Shown: positions 22,667-63,457 of the stretch, one piece after another | How the letters are laid out: every line of letters starts with the position of its first letter | Numbering within the stretch: the stretch's first letter is position 1 | Made by a program: the position numbers and the translations under genes | Assembly: GCA_903813345.2 (NCBI GenBank) | Contig: CAIIXF020000010.1 | Location: forward strand, 22,085,181-22,149,180 | Length of the DNA: 64,000 nucleotides | Reading direction: 5' to 3' | DNA from: Owenia fusiformis | Lineage: Eukaryota > Annelida > Polychaeta > Sabellida > Oweniidae | The notes under the pieces: model-generated | Seen by the model: only the letters and a program-made list of their open reading frames with translations | Told to the model about the DNA's origin: nothing | The model's database searches: none

Positions 22667-23600
22667 TTTGTAAAGAGTAGTTGTATGAAATAATTTTGTT
22701 ACAAAAAATCAGCAAAAACATCATATCCATTTTTTTATTTTCTGTCATTTTAGCCATCATTCACTTTTGAGCAACACCATGTGAGCCCAGTACCCACGGT
22801 ACTAATTTTTATTTAAAACAATGTGCTTTCTTTCAAGTGAAGTTCCAACAATTCCACTTGTGGAGGTGTTCCATTTAAAGAGGTGTTCCACTTTATAGGT
22901 TTTGAGAAAGTACTCATGGTGAAAGATATAATGACCTTCTAAAATCACTTGCCATACTTACCCTGGTCCTTTATGTTGGGTTATTAGGTATTAGACATGG
23001 ATATGATATTAGATAAAATAAGATTATACAAGTAATATTAATAAAATATTATTAAATAAGAATTATGAAATAAATTGAATTGAATAAATGACAGAACTAA
23101 ATTTGCTTGCCGATCCTGAATTAATGATTTATGCAACACAACATGATATAATTTTTAATTTCACATTGTATTAATGCTTTAAATGCTATATTCATAGAGT
23201 CAAGTAGTTGTGACATATTTCCTATTGTATTGCAATTAAGATGTATGTTGTAGGCCTATATCAGTATGCCCTACACCAAAAGAAATAAAGCAATGTAAAT
23301 ACGTATATGTTACTATACTTATTGTATCTTAATTATCCCAACGGACGAAGTTCTGTAGGGATATAGTAAAGCCCTCCGTCCGTCCGTCTGTCCGTCAGTC
23401 ACACTGGAGGCCAAGAGAACTTATCCTGGTATTCATGTTGGAACTTGAATTCGTCCGTCTGTCCGGAGGATAACTCGAATACTAGTCAACAGATTTTCTT
23501 CATATTTAATGGAAAGATGTATATTGGTGAATAGTTTTACGCAAATTTTTCTTCAAGATGGCCGCCAGTTTGAAAATGCCGGGAATTTTTCACAAAAATC
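22667..23600. repeat. Tandem segmental duplication, copy 2
   Basis: Copy of 21731-22666 with only a handful of differences: ACAGG/ATAGG, a 2-bp deletion in ATATATGATATT, GATATC/GATATA, AAGTTG/AAGATG, and TTCTCC/TTATCC. The junction falls at a short AAAATCTT microhomology. About 99 percent identity points to a recent event. Confidence 0.95.
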
Positions 23601-28344: not shown

Positions 28345-29140
28345 ATGGCAAAGTTAACCTACAAATTTGGCGTAGTCATACTACTTTTAATGACTAATGT
28401 TCATCTTGCTCAACTACAAACAACAGACGCCACGACAGAATCAAACACAGATGCTACAACTGATGTTACAACAGCCACTGTAACTGACGTTACAACAGAC
28501 ACTTCTGGAACTGACGCCGCAACAACCGCGAGTGGAACTGACACCACAACGGACAGTAGTGGAACTGATGCCACAACCGCCGCAAGTGGAACTGACGCCA
28601 CAACAGCCGCGAGTGGAACTGATGCTACAACAGCCGCGAGTGGAACTGACGCCACAACTGCCGCGAGTGGAACTGACGCCACAACGGACAGTAGTGGAAC
28701 TGACGCCACAACCGCCGTGAGTGGAACTGACGCCACAACAGCCGCGAGTGGAACTGACGCGACAACAGCCATGGGTGGTACAACCGATGCTTCACAAACA
28801 ACTGATGACGCCACAACTGTGAGTTCAAATGAAACTAATGCTGGTACGACCATGAGTTCACAAACAACTGATGATGCTACGACTATGAGTTCAAATGCAA
28901 CTTCAGCCATGAGTGGTACGACCGATGCTTCACAAACAACTGATGACGCCACAACTATGAATTCAAATGAAACTGCTGCCGTAACAACTCAGGCTTCACA
29001 AACAACTGATGACGCCACAACTATGAGTTCAAATGAAACTGCTGCCGTAACAACTCAAGCTTCACAAACAACTGATGATGCTGCGACTACTAGTTCACAG
29101 ACAACTGAGGCTGTCACAGCAATGATGACCACGACATCTC
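28345..29140 (+). CDS. Exon 1: signal peptide and Thr/Ser-rich 9-residue repeats
   Basis: From ATG 28345 the frame starts [20 protein letters not shown], a clear signal peptide with probable cleavage near AQLQ-T. Then come about ten SGTDATTAA-type 9-residue (27-bp) repeats and a second block of [13 protein letters not shown]-type repeats. In-frame ATGs at 28291 and 28324 would put extra residues before the signal peptide and are less likely. The ATG follows directly after a TTATTTTTCAG sequence that looks like a 3' splice site, so an upstream 5' UTR exon is possible. The exon ends at the strong donor C/GTGAGT (29141) in phase 1. Without splicing the frame stops 6 bases later. It is a secreted mucin-type domain expected to be densely O-glycosylated. 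Confidence 0.8.
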
Positions 29141-32100
29141 GTGAGTAAAATCAATAATGATAATATAGACTAACATGATTGTAACATAATGTCAATCTCT
29201 TAGATGTATTTTTGTAACTCCAGGGTATGGTACAGTGAAACATATAGAGTTATATACATACATGTTTCTTTTATAGTTTTTCGATAGTATTGGGTGCTTC
29301 CACAATATTCATTTTATTGTGTCTATTTTTATCTGTTTAACTTTTGTGTGTTCTTTGTGTTGTCTTCTACAGTCTTACATTCCGAAGATACTGAGAACGT
29401 ATACGGCCTCTATCCTGAACCATTCATACAAAGTTTTCACCCTAGTTCCTTTCATCTTAGTCATACACTTACAATGCTTCATTCTTTATTATAATGCATC
29501 CATCCATGAAACTAGGTGTTATTTTCTATTTGTTAAATGTGGGTTTCAAGGAGAATTAAACACAGGAATGAGGTAACACATTTTTATGTAAAATTTAAAA
29601 TCTAGAAGAAAATGTGTTTACACCACTCCAAGTATGAGAATCTAAAACAGATCCTTGACGTTTTATCAATCAATTCCCTCTAATTAGGATCAGCAAAACT
29701 GATCACAAATTACATAATAGAAGAACGGGAAAAACAACGTTCAACACACTGAAGTTGATACATTTCTGGTCTAAATGCTCTTTAACTACGATCCCACATT
29801 GAGTCAACACTTTCATTTCATTTTCCATGTTTAACAGCTCATACTATGCATATGCAAGTATGCATCTCTACTCTGACATCTTTCCTTTCTTGGTGTGATT
29901 TCAGATGTCTTCTACCTTAACTCTTGCAATTTCAACTGTTGGATTAGAGGCTGTGTACGTTCCAAACCATTTCCAGTTGCTCTGAAAACTCGAAATAAAA
30001 TTCCCGATTATAAGGCAAGAAGAAAAAAGGAAACAATTCCGAATGTAGAAGCAATCAGCAAAGATATATATAATATTTTCCTAGGTTTACTGATGTCAGT
30101 ATTGTATATTGTGCATTTAAGAGTGAGCATACACTCAAATATACCTTACACCTTTCTTCAATTGAAAGTAGTATTGGCCCTGCTTTTTTTTGTTCCGTGC
30201 AGAGAAAGTTTGACCTCATCTCAGGCATCAGTACTTGACAGTACATATTATAATACCAAAGTAGCAAATGATACTACAGCGCCCTTACTTATTACAACCA
30301 ATATCAATAACAATAGTAAAGCAACACAAACTACAATGTTTGTACGCACCACTGAATCAACAACAGTAGGGATAACTGACCTTTCCACTGAAGCATCAAA
30401 TATTGACACTACTAGCCTTGCTACTCAAGAATCAACATTGGAGACAACTGTCCTTCCCACTGAACCATTAACAGTCGAAACAACTGTCATTACCACTGAA
30501 CCATTAACAATGGAGACTACTATCCTTACTACTGAACCAACGACAATCCCGACAATTGCTCTAAACACTGAACAATCAACAGTAGAGACTACTGTTATTA
30601 CCACTGAACTAACAACAGTGGAGACCTCTGTCCTTGCCAGCGAACCATCAACAGTGGAGAATACTGAACTAACCTCTGAACCATCGACAGAGGAGACAAC
30701 TGTTCTATCCACTGAACCATTGACAGAGGAGACTTCTGTTCTAACCACTGAACCAACAACAGTGGAGACTTCTGTCCTTGCCACCGAACCATCAACAGTG
30801 GAGAATACTGAACTAACCTCTGAACCATCGACAGAGGAGACAACTGTTCTATCCACTGAACCATTGACAGAGGAGACTTCTGTTCTAACCACTGAACCAA
30901 CAACAGTGGAGACTTCTGTCCTTGCCACCGAACCATCAACAGTGGAGAATACTGAACTAACCTCTGAACCATCGACAGAGGAGACAACTGTTCTATCCAC
31001 TGAACCATTGACAGAGGAGACTTCTGTTCTAACCACTGAACTAACAACAGTGGAGACTTCTGTCCTTGCCACCGAACCATCAACAGTGGAGAATACTGAA
31101 CTAACCTCTGAACCATCGACAGAGGAGACAACTGTTCTATCCACTGAACCATTGGCAGAGGAGACTTCTGTTCTTTCCACTGAACCAACAACAGTGGAGA
31201 CTCCTATCTTTACCACTGAACAATCAAAAGTGGAGACGTCTGTACTAACCACTGAACCATTGACAGTGGGGGCAACTGTCTTTACCACTGAACAATCAAC
31301 AGTCGGGACAACTTCTGTTACCGAACCATCAACGATGGCGACTTCTGCTCTTACCACTGAACCATCAACAGTGCAGACTACTGCTCTTGTCACTGAACCT
31401 TCAACAGTGGAGATAGCTGTCTATACCACTGGACCATCAACAGTGGAGACAAATGTCCTCACCACTGAACCAACAACAAAAGAGACAACAATCTTTACCA
31501 CTGAACCCTCGACAATGGAAACAACTGCTATAACCACTGAACCATCATTAGTGGAAACTACTGCCCTAGCCACTGAACCATCAACAGTTGAGACAAATAT
31601 TCTTACCACTGAAACAACAACAGAAGAGACTTCTGCCATTACCACTAAACCTTCAACAATGGAAACAACTGCTGTTACCACTGAAGCATCAACCCTCGAT
31701 ACCTTTGTCCTCATCACTAAACCATCAACAGTCGAGACAAATGCTCCTTCCACTGGCCAATTAACAGTACAGACAACTGTCCTTAACATTGAACCTACAG
31801 AAGAGACTACCACTGAAACATCCACAGTCCAGACAACTTCTCTAACCACTACATCAGCAACTGTGGAGACTACCGACCTTACAAGTGAACCATCAACAAT
31901 GGAGACTAATGATCTTACCACTGACATATCAACAGTGGAGACAACTTTCTTTACCACTGAACCATCAACAGTCAACATAACTCTCCTTACCACTGAAACA
32001 TCAACAGTGGAGACATTTGGCCTAACTACTGAACCATCAACAGTGGAGACAATTGTCCTTAGCAATAAACCATCAACAGTCGAGACAACTGATCTAACCA

Positions 32101-35100
32101 TTGAACCTTCAACATTGGAGACTATTGCTCTTACCACTAAACCATCAACAATGGAGGAAACTGTATTAACCACTAAACCATCAGCAGGTGAGACAACTGT
32201 CCTTACCACTAAACAACTAACAGTCGAGACAACTGTCCTTACCACTGAACCATCAGCAGACGAGACAACTTCTCTAGTCACTGAACCATCAACAGTTTGG
32301 ATTACTGATCTTACCAGTGAAGCATCGACAGTGGATACAATTATCATTACCTCTGAACAATCAACAGTAGAGACAACTATCCTTACCACTGAACCATCAA
32401 CAATGGAGACTACTGTCTTTGCCACTCATTCATCAACAGTCGAGACAATTGCTCTTACCACTGAACCTTCAACAGTGGAAACTACTCTCCTTACAACTGA
32501 ACAATCAACAGTTGAGTCAACTCTCCCTACCACTGAACCATCACCAGTGGAGACAATTTTTGTAAGTTCCACTGAACCAACAACTGCAGAGACAATTTTT
32601 CTCACAACTGAACCAACAATTGATATTACTGTTCTTACCACTGAACGATCACCAGTGGAGAAAACTTCTCTTAGCAATGAAATATTAACATTTGAGACTA
32701 CTGCCCATACTGTTGAACCATCAACAGTGGTGACAACTGTCCTTACCAGTAAACGATCAACAGTGGAGACCACTGCTTCTACCACTGAACCATCAACAGT
32801 AGAGACAACTGTTCGTACCACTGAACCATCTTCAGTGGAGACTACTGCTCCAACCACTGAACGATCTTCATTCAAGAGAGCTTCTCTAACCACTGAGCCA
32901 GCAATATTGGAGACTACTTTCCTTACTAGTGAACCATCCACATTTGAGACTACTTTCCTTACCACTAAACCATTGAGAGTTGAGACTTATGCTCTTACCA
33001 CTGAACCAGCAAAAGTAGAGACAACTGTCATAACCACTGAACAATCAACAGTGACTGCAACTGCCCTTACTACTGAATCACCAGAAGCCGGGACAACTTC
33101 CCTTGCCACTAAACCATGGACAGTAGAGTATACAGCTCTTTCAAATGAACCATCAACAGTTAACACTACTGTTCTTTCCACTGAACCACTAACAGTGGAG
33201 ACTTCTGCTCTTACCACTGAACCATCACCAGTGGGGACAACTGTCCTTGCCAATGAACCATCAACAGAGGAGACAACTGCTCTAATCACTGAACAATCAA
33301 CAGTGAAGTCTACTTTACTTACCAGTCAACCATCAACAGTGGAGACTATTGATCTTACAACTAAACGATCAATTGTCAAGACAACTGACCTTCCCAATGA
33401 ACCGTCAGCTTCAAGAACTACCGCTCTTACCACCGAACAATCAACAGTGGGGACAACTGCCATTACCACTGAGACATCAACAGTTGAGACAACTGGCATT
33501 AACCTTGAATCATCTACAGTCGAGACTACTGTCTTTACCACTGGACCATCTACAGTCGAGACTATTGCCTTTACCGCCGAACCATCATCAGTGGAGACTA
33601 CTGCTACTACCAATGAAACATCAATAGTGGAGACAACTGGCCTTACGACCGAACCATCTACATTCGGGACTAATGCTCTTACCACTGAACAATCAACAGT
33701 GGAAACGACTGCTCTCACCACTAAACGACCAACAGTGGTGACAGCTGTCCCTACCTCTGAACCATCAACAATAGAGTCAACTGCTATAACCACTGAACCA
33801 TCACCAGTAAAGACAGCTGTCCTTACCACTGAACTATCAACAGTTGAGACTAATGCTCTTAACACTGAACCATCAACAGTGGCGACAGCTGTCCTTACCA
33901 CTGAACTATCAACAGTTGAGACTACTGCTCTTAACACTGAACCATCAACAGTGGCGACAGCTGTCCTTACCACTGAACTATCAACAGTTGAGACTACTGC
34001 TCTTAACACTGAACCATCAACAGTGGAAACGACTGCTTTCACCACTGAACGATCAACAGTGGCGACAGCTGTCCTTACCACTAAACTATCAACAGTTGAG
34101 ACTACTGCTCTTAGCACTGAACCATCAACAGTGGAAACGACTGCTTTCACCACTGAACGAGCAACAGTGGCGACAGCTGTCCTTACCACTGAACTATCAA
34201 CAGTTGAGACTAATGCTCTTAACACTGAACGATCAACAGTGGTGACAGCTGTCCTTACCACTGAACTATCAACAGTTGAGACTACTGCTCTTACCACTGA
34301 ATCATCAACAGTTGAGACTACTGCTCTTACCACTGAATCATCAACAGTTGAGACTACTGCATTTAGCACTGAACCATCAACAGTGGAAACGACTGCTTTC
34401 ACCACTGAACGATCAACAGTTGTGACAGCTGTCCCTACCACTGAACCATCAACAGTAAAGTCAACTGCTATAACCACTGAACCATCAACAGTAGGGTCAA
34501 CTGCTGTAACCACTGAACTATCAACAGTTGAGACTAATGCTCTTAACACTGAACCATCAACATTGGCGACAGCCGTCCTTACCACTGAACTATCAACAAT
34601 TGAGGCTACTGCCCTTAGCACTGAACCATCAAAAGTGGGGAGAAATGCCCTTACCACTGAACAATCGTCACCTCATACACGTGTCAATGAGCCATCAACA
34701 GTGGGAACAACTGTCATAAACTATGAACAATCAACAGTGGGGACTACTGTCCTTACCACTGAACCAGCAACATTGGAGACAACTACCCTTACCAGTAAAC
34801 TAGCAACAGTGGAAACTACTGTCCTTACAACTGGACCATCGACAGTGGAGACTACTGTCCTTACAACTGAGCCAGCAACAGTTGGGATAACTGTTCTTAC
34901 CAATGAAAAATCATCAGTGGATGCGATTGTTAGTTCTACTGAACCAACAACCGTGGAGAGAATTTTTCTTACAACTGAACCAACAATGGGGATTACTGTC
35001 CTAAATACTGAATCATCGTCAGTGGAGACAACTTCTTTTACAAATGAACTATCAGAAGTTGAGACTAATGTCCTAACTATTGAGCCATCAACAGTCAAAC

Positions 35101-38100
35101 TTACTGCTTTTACCAATGAACCACCAACAGTAGAGACAAATATCCTAACCACTGGTCCATCAACAGCCGACACGGCTGCTCTTACCAGTGAACTATCAAC
35201 AGTGGAGAATACTGCTTCTACCACAGACCTACATACAGTAGATACAACTGTCCTTACCACTGAGCCATCTTCAGTAAAAACTACTGATCTTACCACTGAA
35301 TGTTTTTCAACCAAGACAACGACTCAACAACTAGCCACTGAGCCATCACCATTAGAGACTAATTTCCTTACCACTGAACAATCTACAGTGCAAACTACTG
35401 GTCTTACCAGTGGACCAGCAACAGTATGGACAACTGTTATAACCACTGAAGAATCAATAGTTGATACAACTTTCCTTACCACTGAATCATCAACAGTCGA
35501 GAATACAACTCTTTCCACTGAACCATTAACACTGGGGACTGCTGATCTTACCACTGAACAGTCAACTGTCGAGACAACTGACCCTCCCAATGAACCATCA
35601 ACTTTCAAGACTACCGCTCTCATTACTGAACAATCAACAGAAGAGACAACTGTCCTCTCTGCTGAATCATCTACAGTCAAGTCTTTTGTCCGTACTACTG
35701 AACCATCTGCAGTCGAGACTACTGATCCTACCACTGAACCATTAGAAGTCGAGATAGCTCTCCTTACCACTGAACCAACACCATTGGAGACTACTGATCT
35801 TACCATTGACTCATTTACAGTAGGCACTTTTGTCCCTACCGATGAACCATCAAGAGTCGAAAAAACTGCTCTAACCACTGAACAATCAACAGTGGAGACT
35901 AATGATTTAACCATCGGACCATCAACAGTGAAGCCTACTGCTCTTAGCACTGGACCATCAACAGTTGAGACAACTGCCCTTACCAGTGAGTCAGCAGAAG
36001 TCGAGACAACTGACATAAACACTGAACGATCTACTGTCGAGACTACTTCCCTTACCATTGAACCATCTACAGTCGAGACTACTGCTTTTAGCACTGTACC
36101 ATCAACAGTCGAGACAACTGTCATTACCACCGAACCATCAAGAGTTGAGACTTCTGCTCCTACCACTGAAACATCAACCGTGGAGACAACTGTCCTTACC
36201 ACTGAACAATCAACTGTCGAGTCAACTGCTATAACCACAGAACCATCAACAGTGGAGACTACCGCTCTTACCACTGAACCATCAACAGTGGAAACGACTG
36301 CTCTTGTCACTGAACGATCAACGATCGAGATAACTGACTTTAACACTGAAACCTCTACAGCCGAGACTACCCCTTTTACCACTGAACCATCAACAGTTGA
36401 GACAACAGTCCTTACGACTGAACCATCTACATTCGAGACTAGTGCTCTTACAACTGAACCATCTACAATCGAGACAACTGCTCTTAAAACGGAACCATCT
36501 ACAGTGGCGACTACTGCTATCACCACTGAACATTCAACAAAGGAGACAACTGTCCTTAACACTAATCAACACCTACCAACAGTCGACACAACTATCCTTA
36601 CCACTGAACCATCAACAATGGGGACTACGACCGAACCATCTACATTCGGGACTAATGCTCTTACCACTGAACAATCAACAGTGGAAACTAATGCTCTTAA
36701 CACTGAACCATCAACAGTGGCAACGACTGCTCTCACCACTAAACGACCAACAGTGGTGACAGCTGTCCCTACCACTGAACCATCAACAGTAGAGTCAATT
36801 GCTATAACCACTGAACCATCACCAGTGGAGACTTATGCTCTTAACACTGAACCATCAACATTGGCGACAGCCGTCCTCACCACTGAACTATCAACAATTG
36901 AGACTACTGCTCTTAGAACTGAACCATCAACAGTGGAAACGACTGCTCTCACCACTAAACGACCAACAGTGGTGACAGCTGTCCCTACCACTGAACCATC
37001 AACAGTAGAGTCAATTGCTATAACCACTGAACCATCAACAATGGCGACAGCTGTCCTTACTACTGAAGTATCAACAATTGAGACTACTGCTCTTAGCACT
37101 GAACCATCAACAGTGGGGAGAAATGTCCTTACCACTGAACAAATAACACTTGATACAAGTGTCTCTGCCACTGAGCCATCAACAGTGGAAATAACTGTCA
37201 TAAACTATGAACCATCAACAGTGAAGTCTACTTTCCTTACCACTGAACCATCAACAGGCGAAACAACTGCTCTTAAAAAAGTGGAGAATACTGTTCTTAC
37301 CACTGAACCATCAACAATTGAGACAACTATACTTACCTCTGGACCATCAACAGTCGGGACAACTTCTATTACCACTGAACCATCAACAATAGAAACTACT
37401 GTCCTTACCACTGAACCATCAACAGTAGAGACAACCGTCGATACCACTGTTTCATCAGTGGAGACTACTGCTCTAACCACTGACCCATCAACAGTGGAGA
37501 CTACTGCTCTTACCACTGAACAATCAACAGTGGATACTAATGTTCTGACCACTGGACCATTGGAAGTGGAGACAACTGTCCTTACCACTGAATCATCAAC
37601 AGTGGAGACAACTGTCTTCACCACTGAACCATCAACAGTCAAGATAATTCTCCTTACCACTGAACCATCAACAGCGGAGACACCTGTCCTAACTACTGAA
37701 CCATCAACAGTGGAGACAATTCTCCTTACCACTGACCCATCAACAGTGGAGACTACTGCTCTTACTACTGAACAATCAACAGTGGAGACTAATGCTCTTA
37801 CCAGTGAACCAATAACAGTGGAGACAATTCTCCTTACCACTGAACCGTCAGCAGTTGTTTCAAGAGTCCTCACCACTGAACCAACAACAATGGAGACTAC
37901 TGATAATACCACTGAAGCATCAACAGTGGAGACTAATAATCTAACAACAGAACAATCAACAGTAGAGACAACTGTTCCAACCAATGAACCATCAACAGTC
38001 AAGACAACTTTCCTTACCACTCTACCATCAACAGTTGACACAACTGTTTTTACCACTAAACCATCAGCAGGCGAGACCAGTGAACCATCGACAGTGGAGA

Positions 38101-53100: not shown

Positions 53101-56100
53101 TGAAAATTGATCCTTCAAATGATATTGTCTCATTGGATTAAACCAATCTTCAATCCCTCTTAGTAAGTAATCTATATGTATCTCAAATTCCAGATGTATA
53201 CGTCAATCAGGTTCTAGATTCCTCATCTGATTACACTGGAGATGGCACCACCTTCCACAAGGTTGTTGTTAAGGACACACCTGGGGTCACTGGCTCTATG
53301 TCGATGATCTTCAACACTAATGTGGAGGTCCGTGTAGCTGCTGCTCTTAACATGACAACTGTAACAGTCGCAGCTCCTGCATCATGGAAGGGAAATTTTG
53401 CAGGTATTATAAATCTTAAGATTTTCTTAACTTCTTTGATGTGTAATTGAAATTCTTGTATAATCATATTTTGAAATTCAAAGAAATTGACTGTATTATC
53501 TGTTTGTGCATTTTTATTTGACTAATGGTAATAACAAAACAAGAATTTAAAGAAAAGAAATTAAAGATCATTGAAATGTATAGGCTCGATTTAAAAAGAT
53601 GTACAAGCAAAATGGCAATAGCAATTTTATATAAACTTTGTATTCCTATTTAAAGTTAAGCCAAGAGTTTTTTGTGTTTCACATATTACATGTAAGTGAT
53701 TTTTAACCTCCATCAAATCAACTTTTTAAAAAGTAATGTAAATAACAGAGTGATTACCAAACAATTATCATTTATAGGTTTGATGGGCAACTTCAATGAT
53801 GACATGAATGATGACATCGCCTACCCCAATAGTACATCAATCTCAGTCAACTCCACTGAGGAGGATATCTTCTATGTTGCCAAGGAATGGGCTATTGATC
53901 CAGCAGACTCTCTCTTCCAATATGAGAATAATGATACTGCAGAGACCTATGGAAATGCTTCATATGTGCCACTGTGAGTACTTTTGAATTTTGTGTATAT
54001 ATAATATGAAATATGCGTCTATAATGTTTTCTAGTAGAGCACTCTGTCTATGAATTCATTTGTTTGTCCATGAATGATGTAATTAATGTGAAAATCAAGT
54101 TTATTTAAGAAAATGGTAATATTATACTGTGACATATTTTTGATACATAAAATAACTCAGGGCTTGGTGTATGTTTTATGTCATCTTATCTGTTTGTGTT
54201 TATTTTGGATCCATCATGAGATTATATAAAATAATACTATGCACAGCTTATGCACAGCCAAACACCACCAGATTTATTGTAATTCTGTGCTACAATAATT
54301 GTAATTTGAATTGAATGCAGTCATTGAGTTGAGCTATTTTTCTCTCCAGGTTTTACAACATCGACACCATGTTCACTGATAATGCTACAAAGAATGCTGC
54401 AATTGCTACTTGTGGTGGAATGGAAAACCTAAACCGTGAATGTATGTTTGATATTGCTCTGACTGGTAACCAGGATGTAGGTTCAGCTACTGCAGCGGCT
54501 GGAGCAGCTCTTACATCTGAGAAGGCAACTCTTGGTATGTGAACCGCTTTCAAATTATGTCAGACATGACTAATTTTATGACATGACTATTTATAGTGTA
54601 CAATGCCAATATGTAAATAAAAAAGCATGTTCCATGAAAGAATGGGATTTCAAGAGAAGGGTATGCAACTCTGTGTAATAAACATGAGAACTCCAAAATG
54701 AACAGTGCCATGCACTTTTTTGATAATATTTCAAAGAGTTTTAGAAAAATGTATGTTTTAGTATTCTCTTGAAGAAGAATCAATTTTGAATATGATCAAA
54801 GCTTAAACATGTTTAATCTCATTAAAAGTAATCATATCAAATTATCTTAAGAAAAAGAGGTGTCAAAATGTTCTCTTTGAATGTTGCATTGTGGGTAATT
54901 ATTTAAGAACACATTCTAATAAAAATATAATTTGTGGGGGAATGTTCACCTTCATTATTGCCATAATTATGATGAATATCCATTTTATATTAAATTATCA
55001 ATATGTATTCAGATAATCATGTTTTTATTTTTGAGTTATTTCTTAAATCATTCATGAAAAGTACAAATTAAGATTTTTCTTGGAATGTGTACAGGAAACA
55101 TTTTTCTCTAATTTTGAAAACCCAAGGCAATACTTATGAATGAACTATGGGAAGTTGCATACCCAATAAAGATACAATGGAAATTGAAATGAAATATATA
55201 ATTGACTATGCTTTGCTATTCTAAAGGTAACTTCCCACCAGTGATCCAGGATGCTAACACCACTGTACTAAATGTTGTTGGTGGAGCAGACCTCGACCCA
55301 ACCCTGACTATTGTTGCAGTGGACCCTAATGCTGGTGACACTGTCACATACTCGCTTGGAGCTGGAGCACCAATGGGTGAGTGCATACTGTACATGATTT
55401 GTCTGGTTAATTAGTTTTACTATACTAAATGCAGCTGAATGAAAAAGCCAAATTATGCCAAAAAAGCCCATTTTTTAGGCCCTACAAAATTTCCGGATCC
55501 GCCACTGATTTTGTCCAAGATTCTTAACCATAGATGTTGAGTACATACATTTCAAATTTTACTTCGAGGCATTCAATTTTAGGATTAATTTCAAAACTGA
55601 GAACCATTAGGTTACTCAATTCAGCAGATACTTTTTTTTATAAAATATAATCACATATTTCTTGATCCACAAAGTCATTTGCATTATAAATATTGTTTCA
55701 AGGTGTGAGCATAAACTCTGCCTCTGGGGTCCTCACCTGGACATCTGTACCCTCCAACTTGACCACAAATGATTCAGTGACAATCATTGCTACTGATGGC
55801 ACGGCAACATCCTCCGTCACACCACCTATCAACCTCTGTCTTTGCCAGGTATGGTATATTAAGTATAACATTGAAATACTGCAATTTCTGTGATATATTT
55901 TTATAAAAACATGATTTAGATATGGTATTTTAACATCATATGCCCTTTGAATATACAAAAGCATTAACAAAGCTTTGGTTAAGTTTAGTACTTCATTAAA
56001 TATAGATGCCTGTGAAATCATATGTTCAAGCCCCTTACTATATACATGTACTGTACTGTACTGTAATGTACTGTATTAACTCTATTTATTGCCTTTCACT

Positions 56101-59100
56101 TCAGAATGGTGGCACATGTGTGTATGCAACTGGCACTACTGGACTCACTATGGCTACATGTACATGCCCAAGTGGGTTGGAAGGAGACTACTGTGAAACA
56201 GATATCGATGGTTGTTCAGATAACCCATGTTTCACAAATGTTGCATGTTTGGATGTTGCTGCCCCAGGCACTGGATTTACATGTGGACCTTGTCCAATCG
56301 GATTGGTTGGGGATGGATCAATCTGTACTGGTAAGGAATAAGGAGATTCACATTGACCATTTTCATGTTATGTTTTGAGCAGTTTTTTTCTAGTAGACTT
56401 AGATATAACAAATTGTAGAGAAGAATATCCGAAAACATCACTTTATTTTTTAAAATAGAGTATTCATTTGCATACTTATTGAACATCCCTCACATGTAAC
56501 TGCATTTTTGATTTAAAGAAATGATTATGTTTTTGTTCCCCAACAGATGAGAATGAGTGTTTGGCAGCAGTATCCCCATGTTCTCAGACATGTGTCAACT
56601 TGGCTGGCAGCTTCCAGTGTCAATGTGACGACGGTTACATCCTCAGTCCTGATCTCACTACATGTCTTGATAATGACGAGTGTCGCCAGGGAACAGATAA
56701 TTGTTCCCCAAATGCCGCTTGTGCCAACACAGTGGGCTCATTTACATGCACATGCAACCCAGGATACTCTGGAACTGGAGATGTATGCGCTGATGTTGAT
56801 GAGTGTCTGGTGAGCAATGTATGTGGAAACAACGCCATATGCACAAACAGTATAGGGAGCTATATGTGCACATGCCAGCTTGGTTACTCCATGGATCCAA
56901 TCAGTGGTCTCTGTGTTGAGATTGATGAATGTCAAGGTGATCATGCTTGCTCTCAAGTCTGTGTTGATGGCGTCGCTATTTACACATGTGCTTGTAATAC
57001 TGGATTCACTCTTGACCCAACTGATGCTATTACATGTATTCCTGATAACGTTTGTGATAGCTCTCAGAATGCCACATGTTTGGACACTGGGGACATTGCA
57101 TCCAGCTGTGCTGTTGTAAATGGAGAGGTGACGTGCATCTGCCCCCCAAAGTATGTCCTGAATGGAAACAACCAGTGTGTGGGTAAGATATTTTTGTTTA
57201 GTATATGATTTTTGAGGTACATGTATGTGTGCAGTTCAATTTAAATAGTTAACCATAGTTCAAGGCGGGATGGTTTGTCACTTCCTGAATTCATATGATA
57301 CAGAGTAAAATTAGTAAACATTGTACTTCATGAAAAGTGTAGAATAAATAAAGCAACTACAATATTTACATTACTTTCCAGACATTAATGAGTGTTCAAC
57401 AGCCAGTGGAAACCAATGTAACCTAGTTACCAGTACCTGTAACAACACAATAGGCAACTACCAGTGTGACTGCAAGCCTGGCTTCCAACTGGGTATAGAT
57501 GGCAGGAGCTGTATTGATATTGATGAGTGTGCTACCAATACTGATAACTGTGACAACAGTAATGGAGTATGTACAAACCTTGAGGGAAGCTTCAGTTGTG
57601 GATGTACGAGTGGATATACTCTCAATGCTAATGGCACCACATGTGATGGTATGTTCATTTTCACATATATGATAATTTACTTGCTTTCTCATTCTTTGGC
57701 CAATTTATCTGATTTGCATAAATAGATATATTCTTACTTACAGGTTAGACATATATCATCAACAATATGAAACAGTAAAAAATTAAATATGCTTTCACTC
57801 TAAAGTAGCCAACATCTTAATAAGTCATATGGTTTTGTTTGTTGGACACTAAATTTAATACATTTTCATCATTTGCAGATGTTGATGAGTGTGCTAGCCC
57901 TATCACCAATGACTGTGACGCCAACTATGGTAATTGTACCAACAGTCCAGGCACATATCAATGTACTTGTAATACAGGATTCACTGGCAATGGAATCGTT
58001 TGTGCAGGTAAGCAGTTTGGGCAAGAGTGCTTCATTGAATAATCAGTCTGAGCAAGATTTGAATCATTTTCAATATGCTAATTATCCCATCAAACGAAGG
58101 ATTGTGTAAAAATGGCAGCCATGGCTGTTCGATGGGAATTGCTATGCTTTGTCACTGCTGTTATCTAGTTATACTATATATGGCTTTAACTTTGCTTAAT
58201 AAGGGTTTGACAAGTAATATTTTATGTAAATTCTCAATATTGCTATAGTTTCTTTGTTAAAACAATGAAACACAAATACAGAATTGATAATGCATAAATA
58301 GCCCATTGACTACTAAAACATATTTGGGCATAGCTTTCCTGTAAAGTAAGATGAAATAAATATCTCTTTTCATTTCCATACAAGAGAGGTGTATGAAAAC
58401 ATAATTTCATGTTTTATTTTCTATTGTAGATGAGAATGAGTGTTCTCTACCCAACCAAGGAGGTTGTGTCCAGGGTTGTGCCAATAGTATTGGCAGCTTC
58501 ACCTGTTTCTGTGGCAACGGTTACACCCTGAACGCTGATGGTATGACTTGTGACGATAGTAACGAGTGTCTCAGAGAAGCTGATCATGGTTGCTATAGCA
58601 ATGCCTATTGTACCAATTCTATTGGTTCATACACTTGCTCATGTCCTGCTGGATTCACCTTGGACACTGACTTTAGGACATGCATAGGTAAAAAAAAAAT
58701 TCTATATGTGTACTGAGGTTCACATAACACAAGTTACATAAGTTGAAAGTTTGTTTTTTGTTGAACCAATCAATACTGGGCATTGCATCAAGAAGAATGA
58801 ATAGTCTCACCATTACAAGGCCATGCTCAAATGCTTGTAAAAAATCAAAGGAAATTTTCAAATATACCTAGCCTATGTTGCATGTACCAAAGTATAAGGT
58901 TAATACACCTTCTGAATGTTCCTTACATGTGTTTTTCAGCTATCAACCAATGTGCATCCAACAATGGCTGTTCCCACACTTGTGCCTACCTTAATAACAC
59001 AGACACTTGCCAGTGCCCCAAGGGACTTGAACTGGACAACACAGGCCTCAATTGCACAGGTATGTAGTACTTAATGTTGTGCATCTTATGTTATGTTGGA

Positions 59101-62100
59101 TATGTAATTCATAGAACCGTATATGTATCATGAAATTGATATGTTTAATGGTGCATCTTCTGGAGGTCATTTCCAAAATAATGTAAACAATGAATTTCAT
59201 GAATCATAAATTCACTTTCCAGAAATTGCCTTTTCTGGTAACCATACACCTGAGAACATGTATAAAATTATTTATTGTGACATATTTATGTTACAGATAT
59301 TGATGAGTGTGCAAGTAACGCAACCAATCCCTGTTCTGCAAGCGACAATGTCATGTGCGTCAATACGTATGGATCCGTCAGCTGTGCCTGCAGCAACTCC
59401 ACCTATTATCGACAAGTGGAAGCAAGGAAATGTATTGGTAAGTCTCATTTATATTAAGCCATCTTTTCTTCTTAAAGTTGATAGTTTATTAAACCCATGT
59501 GCTATACTAAATAAATACTATATAGTGTCCTACGTAAAGCCATTCTCTGCATCAGATGTTTCCTTTTATAAATCTATAAATTAATACCAAAGTTAGTCAT
59601 TGACTGCATATTGTAATGGAGTTGTGACTTCATATTTCTATGCAGTTGTGAATACATATTTAAATACAGTTGTGACTATACATCTAAATGGATTTGTGAC
59701 AACATATTTGAATGCAGTTTAACTACATACATGTACTTAGATGCTTTTATCATACATGTGAAATACGACATAATAATCCTCTCTCTTACTATGTGCAGAT
59801 ATTGATGAGTGTGGTGAAGGAACTGCTTCATGCCCCTCTAACTCACTATGTGTCAATGAGATGAATGGATATAGCTGCAACTGTGTCGCTGGATACACCA
59901 TGACCAACGGTGTCTGTGTCGGTAAGAACATTAGATTGTTTCTGGGAGTCAGTAAATTAAATTGGCCAATGTGACTTAAACTTCAATGGTAGTACCAGTT
60001 TGGGTAGATGATACTAGCAATGTCAACAATGCATGAATTATTACAGTGGTGTTACATGCATCCACTGTGTCACATGTACCTGTATACAGTAAAACCTGTC
60101 TAACACCTTTGGTACCTCTAAAAAGTGTTCCACTTGGGAGGTGTTCCACTTATAGAGGTTCATTTAACATAAAGTAATTGGTCTTGAGACTCTGAAAAGT
60201 GTTCCACTAACAGAGGTGTTCCATTTCTGGGGGTGTTCCACTTAAAAGGTCATACATGTATGTTTACATGGTCCTACATGTTACATACTTTTGCAGATGA
60301 TGATGAGTGTACAGCAAATACAGACAACTGCCATCCTACACTGGCTGAATGCACCAACACAGCTGGAGGTTACACCTGCGCTTGCATGACTGGCTACATG
60401 GGAGATGGTGTGACATGTATGGATATCAATGAATGTATTACCAACGATGGCGGTTGTGATGTCGCTAGAGGACGAGGAACATGTGTCAATTTTGATGGTG
60501 GCCACAACTGTACTTGTATTTCGGGATATGTAATTGATAATGTGGGACGTCTCTGTGAAGGTAAGGATATCATGATGTTTATCATTGTTTTTGTTATCCT
60601 GTTGAAATCTCTTATGGCTATATATTAAATTGGTGCTTTCATAATGTAAACATTCTTGAATTAATCATTGAACCAGATGTTGCACTATGTACACGTACCA
60701 CATGACGATTTGACACTAATGATTTTTAATCAACATACAGCTAGCTACAAGAATTTTCTTTCAATACTTGCAGACATCAACGAATGTAACCCAGCAAACC
60801 CAATGAATGACTGCGTTCAGGATTGTGTCAACATAAATGGCGGTTACAGCTGTTCATGCCAAGTTGGTTTCCGATTGGCTGCCGACCAGAAGAACTGCAC
60901 CGTTGAAGCAGAATGTCCTGCCAACAACACATGTAGCGACCTCTGTGCAATGGTGGCTGGCGTGGAGACCTGTCTTTGCCAGAACTCCTTCTACAAGTTG
61001 GACACTGACAACAAGACGTGTATTGATGTGAATGAATGCACCACAAATAACCCCTGCACTGGAAACAACACCCAATGTAACAACACCGTTGGAGGATACA
61101 TCTGCGGATGTGTGAATCAATACTATTTGGCTTCTGATGGTCTCAGATGTGAAGATCGTAATGGCAACTGGGGGCCATGGGGAGGATGGGGCAACTGCAC
61201 AGCAACTTGTGGAGGAGGATCATACAACCGTACACGTCAATGTAACAGCCCTAGCCAGGAAGGTTCAGGTTTACCATGCCCAGGAGCTGACACTGAAACT
61301 GCCATGTGTAATACAGAGTATTGCCCTAAATCAGAAGTTGAATCAAGCTATGGTGTGATTCTCACTATAAATGGTCTGACACCAACTCAGATTACGGCCA
61401 TCCAGTCTGATATCATCACTGCTATCGTAGGTGGAATCAACAATTGGTGCAGTACCTCGGCAAACTTTGGTCAATGTTGCCCCAACTCTGGCACAAGGAA
61501 CTCTTCAAGTGTACTAGCTTTCACCTCTTCTAACTTTGTACAGGTTGGAGAAGGTTATCCTCGATACAACTCCATGAATAAGTCACAAGTTCTCATTGTT
61601 GCTAAGTCCGATCTGAACAATGCTCTGTGCGCTGATGGAAGTATATCTACGAGGAAGAGAAGAGGTGGGTTATATTCATTAATTTTATAAGTTTTGAGTA
61701 ATAAATATGTTATATTGTTAGTACCTCAGTGTAAATACTCGCATCTGATTGGTCAATTGGCGGTCAACATTTTTGCCTGTACCCCACCTGTGCATCATGG
61801 GATATCATATTATTGACTGCGTATGTTACTGTACTACACTTGTGAATTATGGGGAATATTACGTCATAATGTTTACAGAAAAAACATGGACATTTTGTAA
61901 CGTTGATGAAAGTGATATTTTGACTTTGCTAGACGACAATTATAGCAAAAATACAAATAGAAACGTAAAATTAACATTAATTTACCAGTGAGTACGCAGT
62001 GATGTACCGAAAACAGAGAGTTTAGTTTATAAAAAATATTGCTGGCGTGGTTCGGAGAAAAGATTGTGAAATGAAGCCATGATTGATGACTGTTGTCTAT

Positions 62101-63457
62101 ATGTGTATTATTAGGTTTTTCGGGCTAACAAAACAATTGTAGACCTCTCCATTCGGTCAACCGTCAAAATCATATACCTCGACTGTAAACCTTGAAACTA
62201 CTGTTGACCTCGACCTTCGGTCTCTGTCAACAGTAGTTTCTCGGTTTACAGTCTCGGTATACAATTTTGCCGGTTGACCTCTGGAGAGGTCAACAATTGT
62301 ATACTGTATACACCATTTGATTTCTCTCTGTAGCCTAGTGTTAAAAATCCCTTATTGTGCCCTCAAGATAAACTTTCATTCGGGACTCTCATTGTGAGAA
62401 TCCAAGAAGTTCCAAATTGTTAATAGTGTGCAAGATAGCCACAGTTTCATTTTGCACATCTGTGATATTCAGCTACATCTGTTCTATTTCAGCTGTGACT
62501 CTGAACAATGCTACAGAGTTTGCCCTCCCTGCCACTGTTCTTGAGACGATTGTGACAGACAGCACTGTACAAAACAGCATTGTATCAACAATCGCCATCA
62601 CATATCCCTCCGCCAATATTACCATAATAACCATAGTGGCTAGTGCTGATCCTGATGACATCACAACAACAGTAAGATATTCTATTCTTCATAATATAAT
62701 TGATTTAACATAAAAGCTGTATGACTTTTCCTATTGCATTATAGAGGATTATATGCAATTATGATTTCCTTTGAAAGTTTCACTATGTAAAAGAATATGA
62801 ATACGTCTTATCTGTAACCTGTATTCAATCATTCACTGATTTAGTATGTAAAGGTTCTCCAAGAAAAATGTCACGATTTTAATATACAAATGTTTTACTG
62901 TATGTCATACATTTTCACATAGATTTATGCACTTAAATCCTCTACTTCTAGGTTGCCACGACAACTGTAGGTGCTGCTTGTCTTGCTACTGGGACATGTG
63001 CTGCAGCTGCATTGGAAGGATGGGTCATAGCTGTCGCAGTGGTTGGAGCACTGCTTGGAGTCATTCTCATTGTTGTCATAGTGATTGTTGTTGTCAAGAA
63101 GTAAGTCAGATCACAAATCTTGTTTATGATTTATTTATTCTTTGAGCGCTTTCATACATAAATAAATCAGAAGTAAAGTAACCTAGCAAAATATCATCAG
63201 AGTACAGTTTTTTTTATTAGAGCTTTAACAAATAGATGCTATTGTGTTATGCCTGATTCAAATGGAGTTACATCACATAAGATGGAGCTATATATTTTAA
63301 ATCAATTGCAATAAGTCGCAAGTTATGCGTTATATGTGAATTAATGTTTGGCACCAACATATTTATCATATGAGTGTTAGCCCATGTGCTTATGATGAGT
63401 CTTGTTTATCTATGCAGGCCTGGAAAAGTTTCCTCTTCAACTGAATCTGTAGCTTAG
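28345..63457 (+). CDS. Giant MUC4-like transmembrane mucin (36-exon model)
   Basis: Predicted type I membrane mucin of about 7,400 residues. Exon ends were placed by hand on GT-AG sites: 28345-29140, 29905-42455, 42848-44590, 45376-45495, 46502-46747, 47016-47126, 47558-47671, 48166-48279, 48713-48901, 49225-49365, 49568-49709, 49855-50003, 50277-50407, 50601-50774, 50979-51146, 51410-51791, 52189-52566, 52799-53053, 53194-53403, 53778-53973, 54350-54534, 55227-55376, 55703-55848, 56105-56330, 56547-57182, 57382-57648, 57879-58007, 58430-58687, 58940-59059, 59297-59437, 59799-59921, 60297-60560, 60774-61664, 62493-62671, 62952-63100, 63418-63457. Most junctions are phase 1, as expected for shuffled extracellular modules, and phases match throughout. 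The NIDO-AMOP-VWD-EGF-TM order is that of MUC4-type proteins. The total is one base short of a whole number of codons, explained by a single indel near 38607. The 5' end and the exon 1 to exon 2 junction are the least certain parts; exon 1 could belong to a separate short mucin. Confidence 0.85.
29373..29494 (+). CDS. Possible alternative terminal exon after exon 1
   Basis: A strong acceptor (TTGTGTTGTCTTCTACAG) ends at 29372. Joined to exon 1 in phase 1 it stays open for about 40 codons and ends at TAA 29492-29494, giving a short secreted mucin with a His/Ser/Phe-containing C terminus ([20 protein letters not shown]). I see no homology. It may be an alternative 3' exon or a decoy; transcript data would decide. 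Confidence 0.25.
29905..42455 (+). CDS. Exon 2: giant mucin repeat exon (about 330 x 12-residue repeats), one frameshift
   Basis: This exon is 12.5 kb and consists almost wholly of 36-bp units encoding variants of [12 protein letters not shown] (from about 30370 to 42330, roughly 330 units). Thr, Ser and Pro give O-glycosylation sites, and about two Glu per unit make it acidic. Acceptor: TTTCCTTTCTTGGTGTGATTTCAG before 29905. Donor: ACAT/GTGAGT at 42456. Both junctions are phase 1. The frame changes once: the first frame hits TAG at 38625, and the repeat continues in the frame displaced by one base from about 38606. Human MUC4 also carries its repeat domain in one giant exon 2. The first 110 residues (29905-30235) are not repeat-like and include a hydrophobic stretch near 30165-30200. 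A very strong alternative acceptor ending at 30202 would join in another phase. The opposite strand is open for long stretches only because the 36-bp period avoids stops. Confidence 0.8.
30601..31176 (+). repeat. Higher-order repeat, four copies of 144 bp inside exon 2
   Basis: Four almost identical 144-bp blocks (4 x 36 bp) lie in tandem. The marker sequence GAGAATACTGAACTAACC starts at 30657, 30801, 30945 and 31089. Each block encodes four diverged 12-residue units containing [20 protein letters not shown]. The near-identity against the diverged surroundings shows recent unequal crossing-over or gene conversion. Confidence 0.9.
33646..37140 (+). repeat. Segmental duplications of mucin repeats within exon 2
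   Basis: A run beginning [20 protein letters not shown] and continuing through [12 protein letters not shown] at 33646-33900 recurs at about 36630-36880 and partly again at 36930-37100. Between 33830 and 34300 a 72-bp double unit ([20 protein letters not shown]) is tandemly repeated several times. These blocks are far more alike than neighbouring units, so exon length probably varies between individuals. Confidence 0.75.
37686..37940 (+). repeat. Duplicated 250-bp block, copy 1
   Basis: The block from GTCCTAACTACTGAACCATC (37686) to about 37940 is repeated at 38708-38960 with only a few base differences. Both encode the unusual unit [19 protein letters not shown]. The offset of 1022 bp is not a multiple of three; it spans the frameshift at 38607, so the two copies are read in different absolute frames but the same repeat frame. 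Confidence 0.85.
38598..38630 (+). other. Single-base frameshift in the mucin repeat exon
   Basis: The expected repeat path ...ACA GTG (GAG ACA ACT) GTC TTT ACC ACT AAA TCA TCA... appears here as ...ACA GTG GTC TTT CG ACT AAA TCA TCA.... Nine bases are missing in frame, and ACC is replaced by CG, a net loss of one more base. The upstream frame ends at TAG 38625-38627. The downstream frame reads the repeat intact from 38609 to the exon end. No plausible intron fits, since the only GT...AG pair spanning the point would be about 26 bp. It is either an assembly or consensus error in a repeat or a genuine loss-of-function allele. Confidence 0.85.
38708..38960 (+). repeat. Duplicated 250-bp block, copy 2
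   Basis: Near-identical partner of 37686-37940, lying just downstream of the frameshift. It shows that the sequence after the shift is still recent mucin coding repeat rather than decaying DNA. Confidence 0.85.
41797..42135 (+). repeat. 180-bp tandem duplication in exon 2
   Basis: GTGGATACTCCTACTCTTACC occurs at 41797 and 41977, exactly 180 bp (5 x 36) apart, and the five following units match almost perfectly. A similar duplicated block containing [20 protein letters not shown] occurs three times between 40885 and 41790. Confidence 0.8.
42848..44590 (+). CDS. Exon 3: second mucin repeat type (about 43 x [12 protein letters not shown])
   Basis: After a unique N-terminal stretch, the exon is a tandem array of 36-bp units encoding [12 protein letters not shown] (about 42990-44540). 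The unit length equals that of exon 2 but the composition differs: Glu and Pro are nearly absent, Gln and Asn are frequent, and most copies contain an N-T-T sequon, so this array should be both N- and O-glycosylated. The acceptor is TTATTTGCAAAG before 42848. The proposed donor AAAG/GTGAAA at 44591 is phase 1, which fits the following EGF exon. Unspliced, the frame ends at 44649. Another reading frame is also open because of the repeat period; it is not a gene. Confidence 0.8.
44650..44880 (+). pseudogene. Decayed mucin repeats in intron 3
   Basis: Five or six 36-bp units (ACTGTTTCACCAACAACACTGGAGTCAAATAGTTCT type) encode [12 protein letters not shown]-like peptides. This 12-residue pattern is related to the exon 3 unit. 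They are out of frame with exon 3 and contain TAA and TAG stops, so they appear to be a former 3' extension of the coding array that is now intronic and eroding. Confidence 0.65.
45084..45215. repeat. Dispersed repeat, second copy in mucin intron 3
   Basis: Diverged copy of 1088-1225: TTTATGTCATCACCAG...TCTGTAACAAATGACAGGTGG...GACATTTAGCATGTT. It shows the mucin locus and its flank share interspersed repeats. Confidence 0.6.
45376..48279 (+). CDS. Exons 4-8: six EGF-like domains
   Basis: The exons are 45376-45495 (one EGF), 46502-46747 (two), 47016-47126, 47558-47671 and 48166-48279 (one each), all symmetrical phase 1. Domains show the six-cysteine EGF spacing. Several start with calcium-binding EGF signatures such as EIDEC, DVDEC and DIDDC and contain CxNGxxC and GYTGxxC motifs. 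Residues are roughly 5031-5265 of the model. Such arrays form extended adhesive stalks outside the cell. Confidence 0.9.
47183..47270. repeat. 21-bp tandem repeat in mucin intron 6
   Basis: Four to five near-perfect copies of CCCCATATACTTTAAATTCAA. Confidence 0.95.
47795..48165. repeat. Minisatellite derived from the exon 8 splice junction
   Basis: About ten imperfect units of ATTGATGAGTGATATTTCATAATTACACAT (29-38 bp) run directly into exon 8, whose junction reads CATAATTACAG/ATATTGATGAGTG. The units match the last intron bases and the first 11-13 exon bases, but every copy has TACAC where the true acceptor has TACAG. Confidence 0.92.
48713..48901 (+). CDS. Exon 9: thrombospondin type 1 domain
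   Basis: One phase-1 exon encodes about 63 residues with the TSP1 hallmarks: [19 protein letters not shown] followed by RNC, then cysteines near the end in TQACSVPEC. The WxxxSxCSxxCGxGxxxRxR core is intact. TSP1 repeats bind glycosaminoglycans and matrix proteins, and the W residues may be C-mannosylated. It separates the first and second EGF blocks. Confidence 0.93.
49225..50003 (+). CDS. Exons 10-12: three EGF-like domains
   Basis: The exons are 49225-49365, 49568-49709 and 49855-50003. The first lacks the calcium-binding signature, the second starts with DENEC, and the third with DVDEC. The 49709/49855 junction is phase 2 (AG/G giving Arg), the one departure from phase 1 in the EGF exons. 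Exon 12 ends CIG just before the NIDO domain. Confidence 0.9.
50277..51740 (+). CDS. Exons 13-16: NIDO domain
   Basis: NIDO domains are extracellular modules shared by nidogen, alpha-tectorin and MUC4. Visible hallmarks are [20 protein letters not shown], followed across the splice by FTQHGVIAF, then [15 protein letters not shown], a GRGVYHHV strand, and WNKLQY later. The exons are 50277-50407, 50601-50774, 50979-51146 and 51410-51791; internal junctions are phase 0, so the domain is not a symmetrical cassette. Residues are roughly 5473-5740. Confidence 0.88.
51741..52566 (+). CDS. Exons 16 (end)-17: AMOP domain
   Basis: The AMOP domain (adhesion-associated domain in MUC4 and other proteins) begins near [15 protein letters not shown] at the end of exon 16 and fills exon 17 (52189-52566). 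Exon 17 has the expected cysteine pairs: CP near the start, SCCYY, then [15 protein letters not shown]. It directly precedes the VWD domain, as in MUC4. Confidence 0.85.
52799..54534 (+). CDS. Exons 18-21: von Willebrand factor D domain with GDPH motif
   Basis: The exons are 52799-53053, 53194-53403, 53778-53973 and 54350-54534. The start [18 protein letters not shown] is the classic VWD opening, and [13 protein letters not shown] is the typical later motif (G.xGNxNxDxxDD, calcium-binding loop). GDPH lies at 52810-52821; in MUC4 and other mucins this sequence can be cleaved autocatalytically between D and P. As in MUC4-type VWDs, the domain is cysteine-poor compared with gel-forming mucins. 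Residues are roughly 5884-6165. Confidence 0.92.
53974..55226. other. Longer introns of the mucin gene (general note)
   Basis: Introns over about 300 bp not described elsewhere (29141-29904, 42456-42847, 45496-46501, 48280-48712, 48902-49224, 51792-52188, 53404-53777, 53974-54349, 54535-55226, 55377-55702, 58008-58429, 63101-63417) hold only AT-rich sequence. A GGATCCGCCACTGAT-type fragment near 55495 may be a transposon edge. No exon-like frames were missed on domain inspection. Confidence 0.5.
55227..55848 (+). CDS. Exons 22-23: cadherin/Ig-like segment
   Basis: The two exons (55227-55376, 55703-55848) encode a stretch beginning [19 protein letters not shown], with [15 protein letters not shown], then [16 protein letters not shown] and [11 protein letters not shown]. 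This is the pattern of cadherin-like or putative-Ig domains (DxxGDxxxYSL, I(N/D)xxxGxLxW) seen after the VWD in MUC4-like invertebrate proteins. It runs straight into the next EGF, whose first cysteines (LCLCQ) are at the end of exon 23. Confidence 0.75.
56105..57182 (+). CDS. Exons 24-25: seven EGF-like domains
   Basis: Exon 24 (56105-56330) completes one EGF (NGGTC, GDYC) and holds a second. Exon 25 (56547-57182, 636 bp) encodes about five EGF domains without an intron, with DENEC, DNDEC, DVDEC and EIDEC calcium-binding starts. The last unit starts DNVC and is less typical. Fusion of several EGFs in one exon contrasts with the one-domain exons upstream and may reflect intron loss or tandem duplication. 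Confidence 0.92.
57382..60560 (+). CDS. Exons 26-32: ten EGF-like domains
   Basis: The exons are 57382-57648 (two EGFs), 57879-58007 (one), 58430-58687 (two), 58940-59059 (one), 59297-59437 (one), 59799-59921 (one) and 60297-60560 (two), all phase 1. Most begin with DINEC, DIDEC, DVDEC, DENEC or DDDEC and keep the aromatic residue and Asn of calcium-binding EGFs. The exon at 58940 ([14 protein letters not shown]) is a fibrillin/LDLR-like EGF without the acidic start. Exon 58430-58687 has no internal start codon near its beginning and is easy to miss; its splice sites CTATTGTAG and G/GTAAAA are acceptable. Confidence 0.92.
58079..58175. repeat. Short family A-like mini element in mucin intron 27
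   Basis: AATTATCCCATCAAACGAAGG at the left and GTTCGATGGGAATTGCTATG at the right form a short inverted pair resembling the ends of family A. The internal AAAATGGCAGCCATGG also fits that family. Confidence 0.55.
59605..59725. repeat. About 30-bp tandem repeat in mucin intron 30
   Basis: Four diverged copies of ACATATTTAAATGCAGTTGTGACT, intronic. Confidence 0.75.
60085..60255. mobile_element. GTGTTCCACTT-type MITE fragment in mucin intron 31
   Basis: Begins TATACAGTAAAACCTGTCTAA and contains four GTGTTCCACT boxes (GAGGTGTTCCACTTATAGAGG type). The same boxes occur at 21908-21965 and in its duplicate near 22844-22901. CAGTAAAACC-type ends flanked by TA suggest a Tc1/pogo-like origin. Confidence 0.6.
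60774..61664 (+). CDS. Exon 33: three EGFs, second TSP1, juxtamembrane domain and RKRR site
   Basis: This 891-bp exon encodes EGF domains starting DINEC, EAEC and DVNEC. Next is a complete TSP1 domain ([20 protein letters not shown], then RTRQCNSP and CNTEYCP). A domain of about 110 residues follows with four cysteines (NNWC, QCCPN, NALC) that I cannot assign. The exon finishes with SISTRKRR at 61640-61663, a furin-type basic site placed exactly at the exon edge. The donor is G/GTGGGT at 61665, phase 1. This juxtamembrane domain may take the place of the SEA domain found in many membrane mucins, but no SEA autocleavage motif is visible. Confidence 0.88.
62132..62301. repeat. 170-bp hairpin element in mucin intron 33
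   Basis: Nested complementary blocks run from the outside in: ACAATTGTAGACCTCTCC with GGAGAGGTCAACAATTGT, GGTCAACCG with CGGTTGACC, CGACTGTAAACC with GGTTTACAGTC, and GAAACTACTGTTGA with TCAACAGTAGTTTC. The loop is only about 20 bases. It is a small foldback MITE; its transcript would form a long hairpin. Confidence 0.88.
62493..63457 (+). CDS. Exons 34-36: membrane-proximal segment, transmembrane helix, short tail, stop
   Basis: Exon 34 (62493-62671) encodes [20 protein letters not shown] and an alternating hydrophobic/polar strand region, probably the second half of the domain begun in exon 33. Exon 35 (62952-63100) has the transmembrane helix [20 protein letters not shown] followed by VIVVVKK from 63021. 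Exon 36 (63418-63457) adds [12 protein letters not shown] and ends at TAG 63455-63457. The cytoplasmic tail is only about 15 residues with a basic stop-transfer and a Ser-rich end that could be phosphorylated. Junction phases are 1, 0 and 2 and all agree. Confidence 0.9.

Follow-up and report, generated by a model that had tools for sequence, protein, structure and literature searches.

Does the long plus-strand locus in this part of the Owenia fusiformis genome encode one giant membrane mucin of the MUC4 kind, as an original prediction made from the sequence had claimed, or do its Thr-rich repeats and its extracellular modules belong to separate genes? Most work on MUC4 concerns its role as a mucin of vertebrate epithelia and in cancer. 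The window analysed here is a stretch of 64,000 nucleotides (C10:22085181-22149180, plus strand) from an assembly of 498 Mb in 525 contigs, and the locus occupies positions 28345-63457 of it. On contig C1 of this assembly, a series of Hox-type homeodomains contains one gene whose homeodomain is followed by KLTGP, a motif characteristic of spiralian Lox5; a search for COX1 found no match. We propose that the locus is probably a single gene for a membrane-tethered mucin of MUC4 type with type I topology. The predicted MUC4-type identity of this gene is well supported, because repeat exons, a NIDO domain, an AMOP-like domain, a cysteine-free VWD with a GDPH motif, a C8-3_MUC4 domain and EGF modules occur in this order and are followed by a transmembrane helix.

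The model of the locus, whose boundaries were partly picked by hand, comprises 36 exons with 21,914 coding nucleotides (~7,300 codons) and ends at a stop codon at 63457 (Table 1). Three Thr-rich repeat exons are followed by six EGF modules, a TSP1, three further EGF modules, NIDO and a divergent AMOP, and then by the cysteine-free GDPH-containing VWD, C8-3, an Ig-like domain, 20 EGF modules, a second TSP1, a juxtamembrane region, the transmembrane helix and a short tail. A dynamic program based on splice sites and codons linked exon 3 to all later exons as far as the stop. The acceptors at 30205 and 62493 were chosen by hand, the latter in place of one at 62427 that was set aside in the final model, and a doubtful 15-nucleotide exon (45798-45812) was dropped. 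Tiny exons at 44976-45194 and a split of 50601-50774, which came from a laxer run of the gene finder, were also discarded. When a 10-nucleotide gap within the repeats is bridged for counting, 27 of the 35 introns are in phase 1. Run unaided from exon 1, the gene finder made a detour round this gap by way of invented small exons and returned 33 exons and 6,218 codons. The gene finder gave the core a score of 999.8; the reverse strand of the core reached 176, and three upstream intergenic stretches supplied with the identical first exon reached 47-50. This control flatters the core, because the codon table was trained inside it. No open reading frame of at least 150 amino acids was found in the upstream 28 kb of the window, and no tRNA and no Rfam family was found in the window as a whole. 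A near-identical direct duplication with a spacing of ~935 nucleotides (two 300-nucleotide blocks at 100% and 99%) lies at 21729-23300, in a stretch without long open frames.

Table 1. Features of the MUC4-like locus, in window positions.
Feature	Position	Strand	Description and basis
Exon 1	28345..29140	+	265 codons; signal-peptide-like start followed by Thr-rich repeats of 27/33 bp; phase-1 donor
Giant repeat exon	30205..42455	+	12.25 kb, ~4,080 codons; 12-residue unit (36 bp); phase-1 donor
Frame break	38601..38602	+	Lacks 10 nt of the 36-bp unit; position accurate to ~1 base
Exon 3	42848..44590	+	580 codons of a second 36-bp repeat, rich in Thr/Ser/Asn, with 43 N-glycosylation sequons
EGF modules 1-6 (5 exons)	45376..48279	+	Gene model and Pfam
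N-terminal TSP1	48713..48901	+	TSP1_ADAMTS, 23.4 bits (cut-off 23.8)
EGF modules 7-9	49225..50003	+	Gene model and Pfam
NIDO exons	50277..51791	+	PF06119, 3e-13
Divergent AMOP-like domain	52189..52566	+	Paralog profile; below Pfam detection
VWD	52799..53973	+	Pfam, 2.4e-13; 220 aa, 0 Cys; GDPH at 52810
C8-3_MUC4	54350..54534	+	PF23263, 4.7e-9, over cut-off
Ig/cadherin-like domain (He_PIG)	55227..55848	+	Pfam, 3e-8
EGF modules 10-29, mostly calcium-binding type	56105..61163 (end approximate)	+	Count by eye and Pfam
C-terminal TSP1	61164..61325 (approximate)	+	TSP_1, 2.4e-10
Juxtamembrane region (2 exons)	61331..62671	+	No Pfam family; RKRR at 61652
Transmembrane helix	63021..63095	+	Mean hydropathy 3.35
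Cytoplasmic tail (short, split over two exon pieces) with stop codon	63096..63457	+	Gene model

The domain content of the core was largely as predicted. Pfam placed NIDO, VWD, C8-3_MUC4, He_PIG, the C-terminal TSP_1 and several EGF families over cut-off and in order, which bears out the proposed NIDO, VWD, EGF arrays and Ig-like segment and also gives a name to the C8-3 domain, left unnamed at that stage; the transmembrane helix was likewise recovered by hydropathy. The figure of about 29 EGF modules is a count made by eye, and of the two TSP1 domains claimed, the C-terminal one is clear and the N-terminal one falls marginally below its cut-off. The VWD has FCGBP (1.4e-19) and gel-forming mucins as its closest solved relatives by sequence. 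The AMOP found no Pfam match in the window, even at E values up to 10. A profile built from seven paralogous AMOPs, in contrast, detected it in the expected place with 24.4 bits, compared with 6.5 bits for the best of 1,000 shuffles. Four of the paralogous AMOPs themselves straddle the Pfam cut-off of 25 (17.6, 18.2, 27.7 and 25.3 bits), which argues that AMOP is divergent in the Owenia fusiformis genome. In exon-by-exon genome searches with NIDO and AMOP, the window's own domains were absent from the listed matches. Two AMOP exons over the Pfam cut-off, at C8:16780838 and C12:30554250, lie outside the C8-3_MUC4 matches, the latter ~18 kb upstream of one on the same strand; these exons possibly belong to isthmin-like or neighbouring genes.

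The giant Thr-rich repeats stood up well to closer analysis. Repeat coding is spread over the 12.25-kb giant exon and two further repeat exons, with a frame break inside the giant exon, and the start at 28345 resembles a signal peptide on the criterion of hydropathy (3.18). Within the giant exon, 320 units of 36 bp were retained (gapless, with at least 20 of 36 matches), with a mean identity of 81% to the unit. The frame that they encode is 32% Thr and contains no stop in 2,794 codons before the break (30203-38585) or in 1,285 codons after it (38600-42455); the other two forward frames contain 111 and 301 stops before the break and 115 and 57 after it. Few stops occur in one reverse frame as well (13 before, 5 after), a consequence of their scarcity in the 36-bp unit itself. 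Single-step codon differences among the units (n=1,342) comprised 552 synonymous and 790 non-synonymous changes and no stop, against an expectation of 412, 888 and ~42, respectively, if an identical mutation spectrum is assumed. When the columns of the units were shuffled, a mean of 9.5 stops resulted, with a minimum of 1 over 500 shuffles. The lack of stops relative to both the expectation and the shuffles therefore indicates that the forward frame is real and constrained.

This frame is interrupted at 38601/38602, the sole frame switch detected along the giant exon and one that the original prediction did not mention. Since the codons that follow still lack stops, the likeliest causes are a mistake in the assembly, a polymorphism or an event of recent date. 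An intron bypassing the break was rejected by reasoning: 36-bp units flank the break on both sides, so that such an intron would itself consist of repeat. The junction between exon 1 and the giant exon is a further difficulty. The donor of exon 1 is in phase 1, and the strongest acceptor of the giant exon, at 30203 (score 4.0), requires another phase; the in-frame phase-1 acceptor at 30205 is weak (score -0.2), and further phase-1 acceptors lie upstream and downstream. Reading through the end of exon 1 meets a stop at 29146-29148. Thus, the predicted chain of 36 exons extends to its stop codon, but the frame break and the weak acceptor at 30205 tell against its full phase consistency.

The same genome offers a comparison, as C8-3_MUC4 was found over cut-off at 11 loci, the window included. 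At all ten others, ~10 kb or more of upstream sequence was read, and at six of them a Thr-rich frame on the same strand lies just upstream of NIDO, with lengths of at least 6,681 codons and of 4,811, 1,364, 1,127, 755 and 410 codons. Together with the Pfam order that includes C8-3_MUC4, this arrangement of repeat frame and then core agrees with the MUC4-like core that had been proposed to follow the giant repeats. GDPH-containing VWD and AMOP domains were present in all seven of the ten loci that were read for them (Pfam was run on four of these seven AMOPs). The longest frame (C1:24943500-24969000) is Thr/Ala/Asp-rich, precedes a NIDO-AMOP-VWD core and exceeds the window's giant exon in size; the repeat size of the window is therefore not unique. 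The six Thr-rich frames end ~0.6-1.6 kb from the NIDO match, which leaves little room for the EGF/TSP1 block of the window, where 5.7 kb with EGF/TSP1 exons separates the repeats from NIDO. The recurring layout of repeat frame and core resembles that of MUC4, whose exon 2 carries the repeats according to the part of the source concerned (PMC4902942).

The splice phases at these loci point in the same direction. A donor of the Thr-rich frame was predicted at five of the six loci, always in phase 1, the C1 one being weak (-0.1); the paralogous gene models, which are rough and contain tiny spurious exons because the codon table of the gene finder was trained on the window, were used for these donor phases alone. 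A phase-1 acceptor was found at the start of the Thr-rich frame in all five loci examined, with an acceptor of another phase beside it in two, and four of the five Thr-rich loci examined have, further upstream, a start that resembles a signal peptide and is followed by a phase-1 donor, a raw count without a shuffled control. Elsewhere the upstream sequences differ. At C11:14357501-14377500, another MUC4-type core is preceded by an open frame of 5,393 codons that is not Thr-rich; EGF-like units, a 498-bp repeat and a 42-bp repeat were observed within it. No frame of at least 200 codons occurs within ~10 kb upstream at C7:16.58M, C1:27.14M or C2:35.28M: the longest upstream frame at C2:35.28M has 144 codons, and C7:16.58M has a short Thr-rich stretch in a 106-codon frame and nothing more. 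No Thr-rich frame was found at C10:5.76M, a NIDO locus outside the C8-3 list. Among 15 control loci (3 arbitrary and 12 Hox), three frames of at least 200 codons were found, with 15-20% Thr+Ser.

The recurrence of this layout at the paralogs is the best support for joining repeats and core in one gene, a reading that is also favoured by the prevalence of phase-1 introns, the stop-free giant frame and the phase-1 exits of the paralogous repeat frames. Counting against it are the four of ten paralogs without a Thr-rich frame within ~10 kb, the longer EGF/TSP1 interval of the window and, ahead of the first EGF exon, an in-frame Met (45279) that is accompanied by a borderline hydrophobic stretch (2.61) and where a separate start is possible. 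The 10-nucleotide break, the weak acceptor for exon 1 and the AMOP below Pfam detection also weigh against the main reading. Because of the break, the weak acceptor through which alone exon 1 reaches the giant exon, the stop met on reading on from exon 1, the Met at 45279 and the only moderate splice sites of exon 3 (scores 0.5 and 1.4), the locus might instead contain two or three genes: all or part of 28345-44590 would encode a secreted repeat mucin, and the EGF, TSP1 and NIDO-AMOP-VWD modules would belong to a membrane protein of their own. We consider such a division improbable, as phase-1 exits link the giant exon to exon 3 and exon 3 to the EGF exons, and a repeat frame precedes the core at six of the ten paralogous loci.

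The frame break also admits the unlikely explanation that the allele is decaying or non-functional, with the 10-nucleotide loss truncating the protein within the repeats. It is the only such switch in the giant exon, and two paralogous frames, one of 4,811 and the other of at least 6,681 codons, show no break, so that this assembly is able to carry long repeat frames intact. However, there is no stop in the 1,285 codons past the break, and 33 further core exons are stop-free; any functional loss would therefore be recent. In addition, assembly errors and length polymorphism are common in repeat arrays. A different doubt concerns the kind of protein, as NIDO-VWD modules are common to nidogens and Mesh/SUSD2-like proteins, the 29 EGFs and two TSP1s far exceed what MUC4 contains, and the AMOP is divergent. 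That the locus encodes a matrix or stalk protein sharing these modules, and not a MUC4-type mucin, is nonetheless highly unlikely, given that C8-3_MUC4 and the cysteine-free GDPH-containing VWD indicate the MUC4 kind and that Thr-rich repeats precede the core.

If the locus is a single MUC4-type gene, one transcript would span it entirely, and a signal peptide would lead into ~4,900 residues of Thr-rich repeats, which may be densely O-glycosylated and form a barrier projecting from the cell. Through the NIDO-AMOP-VWD-C8-3 block, this mucin part would be joined to a long EGF stalk anchored by a single transmembrane helix. By analogy with MUC4, a cut at GDPH in the VWD might split the protein into a membrane subunit and an outer mucin subunit attached to it, and the RKRR site may provide an additional furin-type cut.

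To our knowledge, vertebrate MUC4 carries no TSP1. As far as the portions of the literature concerned describe it, vertebrate MUC4 shares with the window gene repeats that begin in exon 2, NIDO, AMOP, a cysteine-free VWD cut at GDPH, EGFs, a transmembrane helix and a tail (PMC4902942, PMC8660890, PMC1552070). Its exon 2 encodes tandem repeats (PMC4902942), its putative GDPH cleavage yields a mucin subunit and a membrane subunit (PMC8660890), and its cysteine-free VWD, present in human and chicken, was termed unusual (PMC1552070). The differences are considerable: MUC4 was described with three EGFs (PMC8660890), whereas the window has 29, together with two TSP1s, repeats in three exons, an Ig-like domain and an undescribed juxtamembrane region. 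MUC4-like genes of cnidarians have already been published (PMC9080433, PMC4890752). The mucin4-like skeletal matrix proteins of Acropora combine TSP1 with NIDO, AMOP, VWD and EGF, a combination stated in the relevant part of that report to be unique to corals (PMC4890752). The TSP1 addition of the predicted window protein thus has a coral precedent; in Acropora, repeated TSP1s were described at the N-terminus, whereas the window has one before the core (the one just below cut-off) and one near the membrane, and a giant repeat exon goes unmentioned in the sections of the Acropora report concerned (PMC4890752). According to the relevant part of their description, the mucin4-like proteins of Actinia tenebrosa share NIDO-AMOP-VWD, low-complexity PTS regions of variable length, a signal peptide and a transmembrane helix with the window gene, and their additional domains are CUB, ZP, FN3 or SEA instead of EGF/TSP1 arrays (PMC9080433). 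No spiralian MUC4-like gene was among the matches listed in the open-licence literature.

If our model holds, the TSP1-bearing MUC4-type architecture, once deemed restricted to corals, is present in a bilaterian too. The eleven C8-3_MUC4 loci, six of which besides the window have Thr-rich upstream frames, suggest that the tethered-mucin design is widespread in animals and expandable, and the splice phases around the repeat exon provide a concrete test of common origin. A more far-reaching proposal would be that a signal-peptide exon, a phase 1-1 repeat exon and NIDO-AMOP-VWD-C8-3 constitute an ancestral animal design, which a spiralian has retained in seven or more tethered mucins, including several giant ones; the window member would also bear a SEA/Notch-HD-like juxtamembrane domain with a furin site and be cut at both GDPH and RKRR. 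Taken as a whole, we regard this proposal as decidedly doubtful.

With respect to the juxtamembrane domain, no Pfam match to SEA was found in the window protein, and the structure prediction for the first juxtamembrane exon was of low confidence (pLDDT 37.8), speaking neither for nor against a SEA-like fold. By eye, the order of strands and helices in this region is reminiscent of a SEA or Notch-HD fold. When the genome was searched with TSP1 and the juxtamembrane region as the query, and 135 of 702 candidates were scored, all listed matches outside the window begin in the TSP1 part, and a few of them extend to residue 100-136 at ~30% identity.
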